NCBI GenBank assembly: GCA_032622095.1
Contig: CP136064.1
Location: 258,705,863-258,769,862 of the forward strand
Length of the DNA: 64,000 nt
Origin: Siphonodentalium dalli
Lineage: Eukaryota > Mollusca > Scaphopoda > Gadilida > Siphonodentaliidae
Direction: 5' to 3'
Program-made: the position numbers and the translations under genes
The notes under the pieces: generated by a model
Databases searched by the model: none
Seen by the model: only the letters and a program-made list of their open reading frames with translations
Told to the model about the DNA's origin: nothing
In this document: piece after piece, positions 4,823 through 61,330 of the stretch
Layout: each line of letters begins with the position of its first letter
How positions within the stretch are numbered: position 1 is the first letter of the stretch

Positions 4823-5142
4823 CATGTAGTAAGTTCAAATATTTTAGTCTGAATATGATTTCAGAATATTCTTCAATGTTTGACCATTTCCAGGTTCTGC
4901 CATCTATTTTGGATTAAACGTTTGTATTTTATTGGACCTGTATTGGTAATGCCACCGTAACAGCAATGTTTCCATAATACAGGTTACAATATGCGAAATA
5001 TCGTTATTGGATAGTAATTAACAGTCAAAACAAGAATACAGTCCTTCTATTTTACATGTATTTGTTAATGACAGTTGTTTTACAGACTATTATAAGATTT
5101 ATTATTTCGCATGAACACACTTTGAAGACCTTGAGTCCCTTT

Positions 5143-6285
5143 AACCCCTTTATGCGTGTGGTCCATGGGTATAAGATCTTTAACCCCCTTCTGCGTGTGG
5201 TCCATGGGGATAATATCTTTAACCCCTTTCTGCGTGTGGTCCATGGGGATAATATATTTAACCCCTTTCTGCGTGGGGTCCACCTGGGTGAGATCTTCAA
5301 CCCCTTTCTGTGTGTGGTCCACGTGGGTGAGATCATTAACCCCTTTATGTGTGCGGTCCATGGGGATGATCACTTTAACCCCTTTCTGCGTGTGGTCCAT
5401 GTGGGTGAGATCTTTAACCCCTTTCTACATTTGGTCCATGTGGATGATCCCTTTAACCCCTTTCTGTGTGTGGTCCACGTGGGTGTGAACATTAACCCCT
5501 TTCTGTGTGCGGTCTATGGGGATGATCCATTTAACCACTTTCTGTGTGTGGTCCACGTGGGTGAGATCATTAACCCCTTTATGTGTGCGGTCCATGGGGA
5601 TGATCACTTTAACCCCTTTCTGCGTGTGGTCCATGTGGGTGAGATCTTTAACCCCTTTCTACATTTGGTCCATGTGGATGATCCCTTTAACCCCTTTCTG
5701 TGTGTGGTCCACGTGGGTGAGAACATTAACCCCTTTCTGTGTGTGGTCTATGTGGATGATCCCTTTAACACCTTTGTGCGTGTGGTCCACGTGGGTGAGA
5801 TCTTTAACCCCTTTCTGTGTGTGGTCTATGGGATGATCCCTTTAACCCCTCTCTGTGTGTGGTCCATGGGGATGATCCATTTAACCCCTTTCTGTGTGTG
5901 GTCCACGTGGGTGAGATATTTAACCCCTTTCTGCGTGTGGTCAATGCGGGTGAGATCTTTAACCCCTCTCTGCGTGCGGTCCATGGGGATGATCCCTTTA
6001 ACCCCTTTATGTGTGTGGTCCACGTGGGTGAGATATTTAACCCCTTTATGTGTGTGGTCCATGGAGATGATTCATTTTACCCCTTTCTGCGTGTGGTCCA
6101 CGTGGGTGAAATATTTAACCCCTTTATTTGTGTGGTCCATGGAGATGATCCATTTAACCCCTTTCTGCGTGTGGTCCACGTGGTGAGATATTTAACCCCT
6201 TTCTGCGCGTGGTACATCGGGATGATTCCTGTAACGTAATCCCTTCCTGCGTTTGGTCCATGGGAATGATCCCCTTAACCCTGCA
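5143..6285. repeat. 39-bp minisatellite, about 28-29 units
   Basis: Each unit starts (T)TTAACCCCTTTCTG and continues with a GTGTGGTCCA core, then GGGGATGA or CACGTGGGTGAG variants. The start points 5143, 5182 and 5221 give the 39-bp period. Units alternate between a CCATGG and a CACGTG version, giving some higher-order order. Because 39 is a multiple of three and the unit lacks stops, long overlapping frames appear on both strands, such as a 376-codon plus-strand frame with a 13-residue repeat. I read these as a by-product of the unit, not as a gene. A 1-bp shift near 5830 moves the frame. Confidence 0.9.
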
Positions 6286-23780: not shown

Positions 23781-24004
23781 TGCTTATCTATATCTTTTAA
23801 TTTTTTTTGCAATCATTTTATCCTATTTTTGAATGTCATTTTCGAGGTCATTGGCAAACTTAAAGAATTCATTCAACAAACGCAATTTGAGACATAAATA
23901 TCTAAATAATTCAATAACTGCTGCGCAGTTTATTGAAAGGGATGCAATCAATTTGTATCTTCCAAGTTGCAATCGTTTTGAGGAACCAAGATGTCCGTTA
24001 ACCA

Positions 24005-24275
24005 TTTCTATACTAAATACTCATTGACGAGTAGTTAATTTATATGAAATGTTCATATAATAAGTTCAATAAATGTGTTGAACTTATTATCAGAACATTA
24101 CCCACCAATGAATATGAATCATTTTTCTCTTCTATAATATTATCTGATTTTCTGTCTGTCGATGTTTTATTACCTGAACACCCTCCAAATGCATACTAAA
24201 CAGTTCCATTACGTGTATAGCTTGATGGGAGAATCCATTTAGTACAGAAAGTGTTAATGGAAGTCAGTTCAGAGA
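24005..24275 (+). mobile_element. Family C element relic, copy C1 (single-copy counterpart of the 68-bp satellite)
   Basis: Near 24005 it reads 'tttctatactaaatactcat', then 'tgacgagtagtta' and a 'gaaatgttcatataataag' segment, one degenerate copy of the 68-bp unit of the 58-61 kb array. A hairpin of AATAAGTTCAA type follows (24058-24090). The right end carries 'gagaatccatttagtacaga' near 24231. Copies at 55.6 and 61.0 kb share the right part. Confidence 0.65.
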
Positions 24276-55286: not shown

Positions 55287-55560
55287 CAGTGGCTCAGTTG
55301 GTAAGATGTATAGTGCATTGGCCAATATAAGTCGTTCAGGAATGGCGAAGCTTGTTTGGTGCTTACCGATAGGTGCGGGTAAGTGATCCACGCACATGTA
55401 GGGTAATCTGATTCGTGTATCTGGACGAGTTTGTCAGTTGCTTTCCGGGTGTCGGTGGTTTCAACATGCAGTGATGTGAGTTACCAGTGAAATTAATCCG
55501 TTGTGCGGTCTTTCGTCCACCCGTAAAACCGACAACGTCATTGTATGGCTAAGCGGCTGT
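55287..55560 (+). mobile_element. tRNA-derived SINE-like element
   Basis: 'CCAGTGGCTCAGTTGGTAAG' near 55288 contains a perfect polymerase III A box (TGGCTCAGTTGG) as in tRNA-derived SINE heads. A weak B-box-like 'cgttcaggaat' lies about 30 bp downstream. Further on, 'ttccgggtgtcggtggttt' and 'cccgtaaaaccgacaacgtc' resemble the conserved internal domain I recall from molluscan SINEs. The B box is poor, so it is probably inactive. It abuts family C copy C2. Confidence 0.45.
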
Positions 55561-55850
55561 ATCTGTCGGTTGTTTTTAATCACCTTAACATCACTCCAAG
55601 TTAATAATAGATCATTCCAATGTACACATTTCAAGTTAACTGACTGTGAGAATCAATTTAGCGTAGAAAGGGTCAATCAATACAGTACTGGGTGGATTTC
55701 TGTTTCGCCCCAAACAGTGCATTGGAATGGTCTAAATAATACTATAGGAAGCCGACCCATGCGCAGCCTAGCGCAGGGTCATCTTTGTTTTACCATTCAT
55801 TTAACTGTATATTCATATTACGCGGCTAAAAATTACGAAAACCATACCAA
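55561..55850 (+). mobile_element. Family C element relic, copy C2
   Basis: Matches 61080-61330: 'ttgtttttaatcaccttaac', 'aataatagatcattccaatg', 'gagaatcaatttagcgtaga', 'aagggtcaatcaatacagt' and 'gttttaccattcattt'. The left part with the 68-bp unit is missing. Confidence 0.65.
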
Positions 55851-57224: not shown

Positions 57225-57755
57225 CAAAAATCAGGGAACGATTGTAACAATGGGATTGTGCTCTTACCTTAGATATCATATTTCCACCAGTTCAAAACCT
57301 GGAAACTTTTTGATATTTCTGACCCGTTCTGACAGGGAATTTTATAACATTGAACAAACAAGTCAGGGAATATATATCTTTGTTAATACTTGCTCCTCAA
57401 TAATGAACTTCACAGAAGGGTTGTCCGAGGCCGAGAATGCATGATTTTTGTGACTTTTGTGAGCTAATATCGCAATAACCATTAAATTAATTACACGGGA
57501 GAATTTCCATAACTAAAAGCGACGCGAAGCAAAATCGCTCACAAAGTCACTTAAATCGTACAATTTCGAGTTGGGACCTTCATCTACATTGAAGTACATT
57601 ATTAAGGAACAGGTATTAACTAAGAGATATATTACCTGCGATGGTTCAATGTTATACTCTTTCCTGTCACAATATCAATACCTTCCCAGGTTTTGTATCG
57701 GTGGGAATTGATATCTACTGGGGTAGCTAGAACAGAGATTCATGACATGATATAT
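57225..57755. mobile_element. Family E element, copy E3, both arms
   Basis: The left arm (57275-57420: 'gttcaaaacctggaaacttt', 'ctgacagggaatttta', 'cagggaatatatatctttgt') and the right arm (57555-57755: 'gagttgggaccttcatctac', 'tacattattaaggaacaggt', 'cccaggttttgtatcggtgg', 'agagattcatgacatgat') are inverted relative to each other, as in E1. The centre is longer than in E1 by roughly 120 bp. Borders are approximate and no target duplication was resolved. Confidence 0.65.
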
Positions 57756-57989
57756 ACAGGACAGAGGTCTCGGTTTTCTACATTTTGGGACAAGAAGTTT
57801 GTTGCAAATAACCATGTTCTATATCATCGACAGTGATTCACACAACTCTTGTCAAAGTTCCAATGCAGTTAAGGACACAAACACATTCATTACTAGTATA
57901 TCACATCCACCTTTTTCGGATGCTATAAACTAATATCGATATTCAGTCAAGACATTTTTGCGAGTAACTTACACATTGAAGATCAATAC

Positions 57990-60900
57990 AGGTTAACCCT
58001 TTCTAGGCTAAAGCATCATTGACGAGTAGTTATCCCATAGGAAATGTTAAGATAATAAGTTTTACCCTTTCTATACTAAAGCATCATTGATGAGTAGTTA
58101 TCCCATAGGAAATGTTAAGATAATAAGTTTAACCCTTTCTATACTAAAGCATCATTGACGAGTAGTTATCCCATAGGAAATGTTCAGATAATAAGTTTAA
58201 CCCTTTCTATACTAAAGCCTCATTGATGAGTAGTTATCCCATAGGAAATGTTAAGATAATAAGTTTAACCCTTTCTATATTAAAGCATCATTGATGAGTA
58301 GTTATCCCGTAGGAAATGTTAAGATAATAAGTTTAACCATTTCTATACTAAAGCATCATTGACGAGTAGTTATCCCATAGGAAATGTTAAGATAATAATT
58401 TTAACCCTTTCTATACTAAAGCATCATTGATGAGTAGTTATCCCATAGGAAATGTTAAGATAATAAGTTTAACCCTTTCTATACTAAAGCATCATTGACG
58501 AGCAGGAAAAGTTCAGATAACAAGTTTAACCCTTTCTAGGCTAAAACATCATTGACGAGTAGTTATCCCATAGGAAATGTTAAGATAATAAGTTTTACCC
58601 TTTCTATACTAAAGCATCATTGATGAGTAGTTATCCCATAGGAAATGTTAAGATAATAAGTTTAACCCTTTCTATACTAAAGCATCATTGACGAGTAGTT
58701 ATCCCATAGGAAATGTTAAGATAATAAGTTTAACCCTTTCTATACTAAAGCATCATTGACGAGTAGTTATCCCATAGGAAATGTTAAGATAACAAGTTTA
58801 ACCATTTCTATACTAAAGCATCATTGACGAGTAGTTATCCCATAGGAAATGTTAAGATAATAAGTTTTACCCTTTCTATACTAAAGCCTCATTGATGAGT
58901 AGTTATCCCATAGGAAATGTTAAGATAATAAGTTTAACCCTTTCTATATTAAAGCATCATTGATGAGTAGTTATCCCGTAGGAAATGTTAAGATAATAAG
59001 TTTAACCCTTTCTATACTAAAGCATCATTGACGAGTAGTTATCCCATAGGAAATGTTAAGATAATAATTTTAACCCTTTCTATACTAAAGCATCATTGAT
59101 GAGTAGTTATCCCATAGGAAATGTTAAGATAATAAGTTTATCCCTTTCTATACTAAAGCATCATTGACGAGTAGGAAAAGTTCAGATAACAAGTTTAACC
59201 CTTTCTAGGCTAAAGCATCATTGATGAGTAGTTATCCCATAGGAAATGTTAAGATAATAAGTTTAACCCTTTCTATACTAAAGCATCATTGACGAGTAGT
59301 TATCCCATAGGAAATGTTCAGATAATAAGTTTAACCCTTTCTATACTAAAGCCTCATTGATGAGTAGTTATCCCATAGGAAATGTTAAGATAATAAGTTT
59401 AACCCTTTCTATATTAAAGCATCATTGATGAGTAGTTATCCCGTAGGAAATGTTAAGATAATAAGTTTAACCCTTTCTATACTAAAGCACCATTGACGAG
59501 TAGGAAAAGTTCAGATAACAAGTTTAACCCTTTCTATACTAAAGCATCATTGACGAGTAGTTATCCCATAGGAAATGTTCAGATAATAAGTTTAACCCTT
59601 TCTATACTAAAGCCTCATTGATGAGTAGTTATCCCATAGGAAATGTTAAGATAATAAGTTTAACTCTTTCTATATTAAAGCCTCATTGGTGAGTAGTTAT
59701 CCCATAGGAAATGTTAAGATAATAAGTTTAACCCTTTCTATACCAAAGCATCATTGATGAGTAGTTATCCCATAGGAAATGTTAAGATAATAAGTTTAAC
59801 CCTTTCTATACTAAAGCATCATTGATGAGTAGTTATCCAATATGAAATGTTAAGATAATAAGTTTAACCCTTTCTATACTGAAGCATCATTGATGAGTAG
59901 ATATCCCTTAGGAAATGTTCAGATAATAAGTTTAACCATTCCTATACTAAAGCATCATTGACGAGTAGTTATCACATAGGAAATGTTAAGATAAGTTTGA
60001 CCCTTTCTATACTAAAGCATCATTGGTGAGTAGTTATCCCATAGGAAATGTTAAGATAATAAGTTTAACCCTTTCTATACTAAAGCATCATTGACGAGTA
60101 GTTATCCCATAGGAAATGTTAAGATAACAAGTTTAACCCTTTCTATACTAAAGCATCATTGACGAGTAGTTATCCCATAGGAAATGTTAAGATAATAATT
60201 TTAACCCTTTCTATACTAAAGCATCATTGATGAGTAGTTATCCCATAGGAAATGTTAAGATAATAAGTTTAACCCTTTCTATACTAAAGCATCATTGACG
60301 AGTAGGAAAAGTTCAGATAACAAGTTTAACCCTTTCTAGGCTAAAGCATCATTGACGAGTAGTTATCCCATAGGAAATGTTAAGATAATAAGTTTAACCC
60401 TTTCTATACCAAAGCATCATTGATGAGTAGTTATCCCATAGGAAATGTTAAGATAATAAGTTTAACCCTTTCTATACTAAAGCATCATTGATGAGTAGTT
60501 ATCCAATATGAAATGTTAAGATAATAAGTTTAACCCTTTCTATACTGAAGCATCATTGATGAGGAGATATCCCTTAGGAAATGTTCAGATAATAAGTTTA
60601 ACCATTCCTATACTAAAGCATCATTGACGAGTAGTTATCACATAGGAAATGTTCAGATAAGTTTGACCCTTTCTATACTAAAGCATCATTGGTGAGTAGT
60701 TATCCCATAGGAAATGTTCAGATAATAAGTTTAACCCTTTCTATACTAAAGCATCATTGACGAGTAGTTATCACATAGGAAATGTTAAGATAATAAGTTT
60801 AACCCTTTCTATACCAAAGCATCATTGATGAGTAGTTATCCCATAGGAAATGTTAAGATAATAAGTTTAACCCTTTCTATACTAAAGCATCATTGATGAG

Positions 60901-61015
60901 TAGTTATCCAATATGAAATGTTCAGATAATAAGTTTAACCATTCCTATACTAAAGCATCATTAATGAGTAGTTATCCCATAGGAAATGTCCAGATAATAA
61001 GTTCAACAAACGACC
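57990..61015 (+). repeat. 68-bp satellite, about 44 units, derived from family C
   Basis: The consensus unit starts TTTAACCCTTTCTATACTAA, continues AGCATCATTGACGAGTAGTT and ATCCCATAGGAAATGTTAAG, and ends ATAATAAG; the period 58013 to 58081 is 68 bp. Shortened units lacking about 16 bp ('gagtaggaaaagttcag') occur near 58500, 59170, 59500 and 60300. Marked variants recur at a spacing near 666 bp (59901 and 60567), showing block duplication. The unit equals the left part of family C, and the array runs directly into the single-copy rest of C at its right edge. No protein is expected. Confidence 0.95.
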
Positions 61016-61330
61016 GTTGAACTTATTATCTAAATATTTCCCGCCAATAAATAGGACTCCTTCTGCACGTTTAGTTATTTGTCGTCTGCTTTTATCACCC
61101 TAACATCCCTCCATATCAATAATAGATCATTCAAATGTAAAATGTTTAAATGACTGGGAGAATCCATTTAGTATAGAAGGGGTAAAATCAATGCAGTTCT
61201 GAATGGATTCTCTGTTTCTCTTCAGTGCGTCCAGTGCATTTGGGCTGGTCTAATAATTGCTATGAAGCTGGCAACATGTGTATGGTCACCATATGTTTTA
61301 CCATTCTTTTGAATGTTTAATCATATAGAC
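60996..61330 (+). mobile_element. Family C element, copy C3, right part
   Basis: Begins with the hairpin AATAAGTTCAAC...GTTGAACTTATT (about 60996-61030). It continues through 'aataatagatcattcaaatg' to 'gagaatccatttagtataga' with 'aggggtaaa' (61170-61193). That end is the inverted form of the unit start TTTA(A)CCC.TTCTATACTAAA, so the satellite unit contains the element's left terminus. Confidence 0.7.

Follow-up and report, generated by a model that had tools for sequence, protein, structure and literature searches.

The window analysed here, a stretch of 64,000 nucleotides on contig 4 (258,705,863-258,769,862) of the 2.23 Gb, 9-contig genome of Siphonodentalium dalli, carries towards its right end a tandem array of 68-bp units that is continuous with a short transposable element (Table 1). 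Tandem Repeats Finder reported the array at 57,979-61,007, with a period of 68, 45.2 copies and 90% matches. Splitting it at the terminus of the element yielded 45 units, with start positions running from 57,993 to 60,935. Most of the 44 spacings (38) measure 68 bp, and the other six are 57 bp (four) or 65 bp (two). A typical unit starts with TTAACCCTTTCTATACTAAA and ends in AATAAGT, and the 45 units comprise 30 distinct sequences, the order of which is partly repeated. The unit-start pattern had 12,454 matches genome-wide as compared to 0 for a reversed-pattern control, placing the array far beyond chance.

Table 1. The array element and related features in the window (positions are those of the window)
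Feature	Position	Strand	Remarks
Whole element (left-end array and MITE body)	57993..61186	+	TTAA at 57,993-57,996; decayed TTAA (TAAA) at 61,183-61,186
Array of 45 tandem left ends (68-bp unit; four units measure 57 bp and two 65 bp)	57993..61002	+	
7-unit block present twice at a 10-unit lag	58129..59262	+	Units 2-8 and 12-18, numbered from 0
Inverted repeat at the inner edge of the array	60982..61041	+	26-nt arms, 88% complementary; 8-nt loop
MITE body, single copy	61003..61186	+	Right terminal inverted repeat at 61,167-61,186
Related single-unit element ('family C')	23998..24257	+	TTAA on either side; 70.2% identity to window 60,935-61,202; not in the clade of the window element
Right half of a related element, with about 140 bp of the right flank of the array element	55560..55818	+	72.8% identity

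Each unit in the window array represents the left end of a piggyBac-like MITE with TTAA on its flanks. It corresponds to the portion of the element that reaches from the left TTAA to a TTAA-like motif (TTCAAC) in the first arm of a hairpin, so that the unit boundary falls within that arm. The last unit continues through the inverted repeat (arms 60,982-61,007 and 61,016-61,041) into the body of the element, which ends at 61,186 in the inverted terminus TTTAGTATAGAAGGGGTAAA, with 18 of 20 letters as expected. The single-strand DNA fold of 60,935-61,064 had a z value of −6.7, as compared to −0.6 for 58,061-58,190 inside the array. A previous sequence-only reading of this locus had recognized the unit as the terminus of a TTAA-type MITE, with the array inside the element at one end and running straight into the remainder, and had described the other end of the element as the inverted form of the unit start; all of this was borne out. 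Its count of about 44 tandem copies becomes 45, and the rest of the element, which it had placed at 61.0-61.3 kb, is indeed joined to the array but ends at about 61.19 kb, not 61.33.

The same reading had equated the unit with the left end of the 'family C' element at 24 kb, given as single-copy at 24005-24275. That copy spans 23,998-24,257, and the right half of the element recurs in the window, where it is found together with about 140 bp of right flank at both 55,560-55,818 and 61,076-61,326 (5.5 kb apart, 72.8% identity). The 24-kb copy is only a distant cousin of the window element, being 70.2% identical to it over 282 bp and lying outside its clade in the tree described below, and is therefore ruled out as its parent.

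Several other repeats were observed in the window. A second array, led by a TTAACCC-type end, occupies 5,139-6,225, with about 28 copies of a 39-bp unit (TTTAACCCCTTTCTGYGTGTGGTCCA...); all 18 genome matches of a 26-mer from it (up to 1 mismatch) lie within the window, so it looks like a single-locus repeat. Just left of the MITE array, at 57,270-57,717, there is a diverged inverted repeat (66%) that forms a palindrome around its centre and is related to sequences at 8.6-9.0 kb and 45.6-45.8 kb. Altogether the window has 49 tandem-repeat rows, with further minisatellites at, for example, 24.6-25.1, 27.4-28.5, 29.6-30.1 and 32.7-33.3 kb.

Single-unit copies of the family measure about 250-260 bp (the 24-kb copy, at 260 bp, is short as in a MITE); they are bordered on both sides by TTAA and have terminal inverted repeats of 20 bp that start with CCCTTT. 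A TTAA target site duplication flanks the 24-kb copy on both sides, and likewise sampled copies (L020, L054, L061 and L071, for instance), and the right-hand TTAA of the window element reads TAAA. No open reading frame of at least 110 aa was found in 57,993-61,186. The account of piggyBac/TTAA-type MITEs in PMC2872659 gives their terminal inverted repeats as beginning with CC[C/T]T, which TTAA-CCCTTTCTATACTAAA and its inverse satisfy, and as judged from its ends the element fits this type. The T2/Kolobok type, to which Xmix has been assigned, also uses TTAA, but is described in PMC6004289 as having a terminal AGGRR after it; it was ruled out, since our element starts with CCCTTT at this position.

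As for a possible source of transposase, the genome contains 128 matches to the piggyBac transposase domain PF13843, many of them with open frames. Among 17 piggyBac copies sampled with their surroundings, 6 had nearby a possible end, TTAACCCTTT; the 20-bp terminus of our element occurred at none of the 17, the best match having 4 mismatches out of 20. Many piggyBac copies show an open frame of 562 aa with one TGA inside the PF13843-matched domain, which may reflect an intron, a frameshift or a stop codon that has been inherited.

Arrays of this left end are widespread in the genome. A 40-mer spanning the unit-unit junction had 17,176 matches in the 2.23 Gb (up to 3 mismatches), a 40-mer from the body of the young subfamily had 1,318 (up to 3 mismatches), and the right end had 15,433 (up to 2 mismatches). 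The 100 exact junctions among the matches listed form 42 clusters within the first 34.4 Mb of contig 1. We sampled 30 loci by an exact right end and 12, drawn from these 42 clusters, by a junction match, all of them from contig 1 (among the matches listed, the first 100). Arrays were found in 2 of the 30 right-end loci (L013 with 5 units and L036 with 4) and in all 12 junction loci, the latter with 14, 6, 15, 16, at least 15, at least 25, 7, 3, at least 16, at least 15, 15 and 20 units. At L098, L099, L100, L103 and L104 the sampled stretch ends in or beside the array, so for L099, L100, L103 and L104 the unit numbers are minimum values. Overall, arrays sampled beyond the window have from 2 to at least 25 units, plus one of about 74 units without a body; the window array is thus long, yet not unique. 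The family resembles a MITE-derived satellite in having a tandem unit that is part of a MITE, arrays that lie inside elements, and one array without a body in its sampled flanks.

That array, L077 on contig 5, extends over 5 kb, which makes it the longest we saw in stretches of up to 10 kb, and includes a repeated block of 1,877 bp; no body was present in its sampled flanks of about 0.4 and 0.9 kb. Across the sampled arrays, the unit-unit junction reads TTTAA in 115 and TTAAA in 25 of 155 junctions scored. More complex arrangements were also noted. In L098 (contig 1, 31,644,300-31,646,400, there at 554-2,101) the order is an inverted body, 16 units in tandem, and then at least 5 units in the inverted orientation. 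The family's hairpin also occurs three times in identical form on contig 1, at 89,876,218, 89,877,784 and 89,879,350; this spacing of exactly 1,566 bp suggests that the element is part of a larger tandem repeat. In L095 and L101 another TTAA-led repeat (TTAACCCTTTACCCAACAGAA...) cuts into the body of the array element and is accompanied by a long palindrome (CATTCTCTTATATATGC...), which was also seen in L011, L012, L017, L026 and L029.

The number of units was found to differ between duplicated copies of the same locus. We met five pairs of duplicate loci with shared flanks, and probably more exist; in four of the five the unit numbers differ (7/6, 11/15, 6/1 and 2/1), the exception being L057 and L059, both with 3 units. 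L004 (7 units) and L005 (6 units) have 200-bp flanks that are 100% (left) and 99.5% (right) identical, and are distinguished by one extra 69-bp unit in L004 and by clustered changes in the inner half. L001 and L097, with 11 and 15 units, share a left flank (98.3% over 582 bp) and match poorly on the right (69% over 243 bp); a two-unit block of which L001 has one copy occurs as a tandem pair in L097, with 100% identity. In the 2/1 pair, L074 and L108, the left flank is shared and the single unit of L108 is shortened. The remaining pair, L054 and L107, shares both flanks and has 6 units versus 1. The lone unit of L107 starts with the sequence markers of the outermost unit of L054 and continues with those of its innermost unit, so L107 most simply appears to be an array that collapsed by recombination between its first and last units; an in-register gain of inner units from elsewhere would be the less simple, though strictly conceivable, alternative. 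Given this likely collapse, single-unit copies need not be ancestral. L107 and L108 both came to light through a search for empty sites with joined flanks.

To place the window element among its relatives we built a tree of element bodies, from which 5 of 46 body matches were excluded, L006, L025, L037 and L050 as partial or doubtful and L098 as rearranged. The window element falls in a 20-member clade (support 100/98) that holds 10 of the 12 array elements in the tree, itself among the 10. Array and single-unit copies are intermixed on this tree, with 8 changes as compared to a mean of 10.8 after shuffling (16 of 500 shuffles were as low); for L061 and L095, where indels interrupt the chain of units, hand-set unit numbers of 11 and 14 were used. 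Such mixing fits collapse, which by leaving collapsed arrays among the single-unit copies helps to explain it, and also fits several origins. Among copies that had not been chosen for their arrays, arrays were present in 6 of 16 inside the clade versus 2 of 21 outside, a borderline difference (Fisher p = 0.055). This count was made by hand; it excludes the window element, L059 (as the duplicate of L057) and the array-chosen L095 and L106, and scores L073, in which the second unit is a piece, as an array.

Three lines of evidence, together with the block structure of the array, bear on how the window array itself became so long. First, six close relatives of its body (87-88% body identity; ranks 2, 3, 4, 6, 7 and 10 among the best 40 body matches) have one unit in four cases (one of them cut), one unit and a piece in another, and two units in the last; L034, at rank 5 of the 40, also has one unit. 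Second, the 57-bp unit variant has 4 matches in the genome at up to 2 mismatches, all 4 in the window. Third, for 43 of the 45 window units the closest unit occurs only in the same array, in a comparison into which 30 loci were entered and 28 yielded units long enough; in a second unit set with more arrays, the nearest unit was in the same array for 41.6 of 45 when ties were split. The order of the units repeats in a block at a lag of 10 units, and in 2000 shuffles of the order a run of 7 units was reached 9 times and the lag-10 likeness 7 times. The window array therefore appears, from these sequence comparisons, to have been lengthened on site, in blocks. It is not a very recent array, given that its units have diverged from each other by about 6-9%. 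Apart from this, some of the matches at ranks 8, 9 and 11-40 among the best 40 look like further duplicate sets.

These data also qualify the picture of a satellite growing by local expansion. The length of the window array does seem to be a local product, as the sequence-only reading had proposed, but 17,176 junctions and arrays at 12 of 12 junction loci do not describe one satellite at one place, and 'growing' is one-sided as a description of the family, the clearest duplicate pair being most simply a loss. That reading had also considered that the array might be an old built-in feature if copies elsewhere all carried long arrays; they do not all do so, yet many have arrays, and some of these look old. 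In 7 of 24 arrays (L004, L005, L054, L061, L074, L103 and L104) the units are no more alike than are units of different loci, with within- and between-locus identities of, for example, 0.862 and 0.876 for L004, 0.872 and 0.879 for L054, and 0.883 and 0.890 for L061. The duplications in these seven therefore look old, about the age of the spread of the subfamily, and the simplest reading of the sequences is that mobile copies already had even arrays, all units of which have decayed since; alternatively, exchange between loci may have made the units equally alike.

In the other 17 of the 24 arrays, within-array identity exceeds between-array identity, by 0.001 (L102) to 0.049 (L077), and in L077 the nearest unit is in the same array only for 70 of 74 units. 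Much array evolution is therefore local, and the case for travel of ready-made arrays comes from a minority of the arrays. A search for empty sites with the joined flanks of L054, L061, L036, L074 and the window element gave no match that crossed the join (40 of 168 candidates scored). Since exchange could mimic the equal likeness and no empty site was found among these, travel of arrays with the element is an inference. One specific form of such travel, in which an ancestral array reached all loci with its units kept in fixed positions, was rejected, as units in the same place are no more alike than random ones: body-adjacent units of 14 loci have an identity of 0.886, as compared to a mean of 0.889 (sd 0.016) for random choices. 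The outermost units are the most divergent (0.845, 14 loci), in part since some of them are cut.

Taken together, we consider it probable (about 0.75) that the left end of a piggyBac-like MITE of about 250 bp turns readily into a tandem unit, that units have since been added and lost by recombination or slippage, and that some arrays travelled with the element whereas the window copy grew on site. The unit spans the TTAA and the terminal inverted repeat up to the TTAA-like motif in the first arm of the hairpin, and since it runs from terminus to arm motif, joining the arm to a terminus would give every unit its own TTAA and an intact transposon end. The second unit may have arisen by slippage, either across this short stretch of homology or close to the loop of the hairpin; a same-orientation insertion at the TTAA in the arm would lead to the same structure. 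Once two units were present, recombination or slippage between units could add or remove units, singly or in blocks. Arrays would already have been present in some mobile copies and spread along with the element, the window copy would later have expanded on site to its 45 units, and long arrays may outlive the element as free satellites (compare L077) or take up inversions (as in L098).

The reading that comes closest to this one holds that all growth is local, each single-unit element expanding after its insertion and arrays never travelling. The same-array nearest units in the window and in L077, the higher identity within 17 of the 24 arrays and the changed unit numbers at duplicate loci all speak for it; in the seven arrays with units no closer within than between loci, however, the duplications seem about as old as the spread of the subfamily, and we regard purely local growth as unlikely, if still worth weighing.

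It is also conceivable that the array arose by self-insertion, with one MITE inserted in the same orientation at the hairpin-arm TTAA of another and the composite then moved by its outer left and inner right ends, which would yield two units at a single stroke. A TTAA lies at the unit boundary, as the junction motifs given above reflect, and some arrays mix unit types of different subfamilies (L036 and L007), but short homology at the same motif predicts the same boundary. At L076 (contig 2, 177,411,300-177,412,400) one element is in fact inserted at the arm TTAA of another, at the position of the unit boundary, but in inverted orientation. The right-hand scar expected from same-orientation nesting had 68 matches at up to 3 mismatches; a single one of these had no more than 2, and the majority of the rest resemble unit-unit junctions in inverted orientation. 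That single match, L075, is without the outer left half (2 of the 68, L075 and L076, were examined at the locus level). Self-insertion is thus rejected as the main origin, and we consider it improbable as a route to the first arrays.

Capture of a pre-existing satellite by the MITE, to which the body-less L077 array could point, is very improbable, as every unit has the element's own terminal inverted repeat and TTAA, and units match the lone left end found in one-unit copies, among them some that lie outside the young clade. An assembly artefact (a collapsed or falsely expanded repeat) is the least credible explanation: tandem arrays are error-prone and our data consist of the assembly sequence, yet the window array has many distinct units in partly repeated order and similar arrays, each with its own units, recur at other loci.

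The structure of the unit raises one further, rather speculative possibility, to which we attach a low probability. As a typical unit starts with TTAA and a whole terminal repeat, the array can be seen as a ladder of transposon ends, each an alternative to the others. A transposase that can use any unit as the left end would copy or trim any number of units with each jump, sowing satellite seeds of varied length while recombination resets them.

Conversion of a MITE into a satellite is already known, and the accounts cited here describe four comparable systems, in Xmix/Xstir, miDNA4, Tetris TIR-220 and the CMITEs. The Xmix MITE and Xstir repeats of Xenopus (Hikosaka and Kawahara 2004, as presented in PMC12628747, PMC9659126 and PMC6004289; Xstir is also listed in PMC6947457) resemble our family in being based on a TTAA-targeting MITE, with single elements, tandem arrays and composites in one genome and arrays borne by the MITE. 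PMC6004289, which places Xmix in T2/Kolobok with its AGGRR terminus, describes amplification of an internal segment, unlike the unit here, which holds the very end and the TTAA, with a CCCTTT terminus; a table in PMC9659126, however, names the TIR as the source of Xstir, which runs counter to this contrast. In miDNA4 of Xenopus tropicalis (Scalvenzi and Pollet 2014, through PMC12628747 and PMC9659126), a MITE likewise contains a single monomer or an array of variable number; these two sources report that short homologies were proposed for it and that arrays later lose their ends. That element is of the Tc1/mariner type and its tandem repeat is said to have been captured, whereas the unit here derives from the end of the element.

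In Tetris of Drosophila virilis (PMC4079207), tandem TIR-220 units also lie in the terminal part of a DNA transposon, with few units inside elements and contigs of units without the element; the longest arrays described there reach 66 copies, and two alleles that are nearly identical have 3 and 4 units. Tetris, as characterized in that paper, is a foldback element with the units inside its outermost flanking domain, unlike the 68-bp unit here, which includes the outermost end and is repeated on the left side only. The CMITEs of Acropora corals (PMC2872659) are likewise piggyBac-type TTAA MITEs with CCCTTT-like ends and tandem arrays, for which that study proposed slippage; in its description the whole MITE of about 100 bp is repeated, in contrast to the left end only here, in up to 45 units (about 74 without a body). 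Within the open-licence literature, the difference presented by our family is a modest one, namely that the repeated part is the outermost end, on one side only. Because it is the outermost end that is repeated, each unit is a potential transposon end.

The evidence for a changing number of units is unusually direct in this genome. Satellite birth from transposons is usually reconstructed from its end products; here, one genome holds a series with one, two, three and dozens of units and a long array without the element, as well as duplicate loci that differ by single steps. The series also calls for caution, since one-unit copies are easily taken as ancestral, and L107 is most simply a collapsed array. 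If the units do serve as transposon ends, transposition would be coupled to satellite birth through the end sequence itself, and the family would offer a simple system for measuring the effect of end choice on array length.
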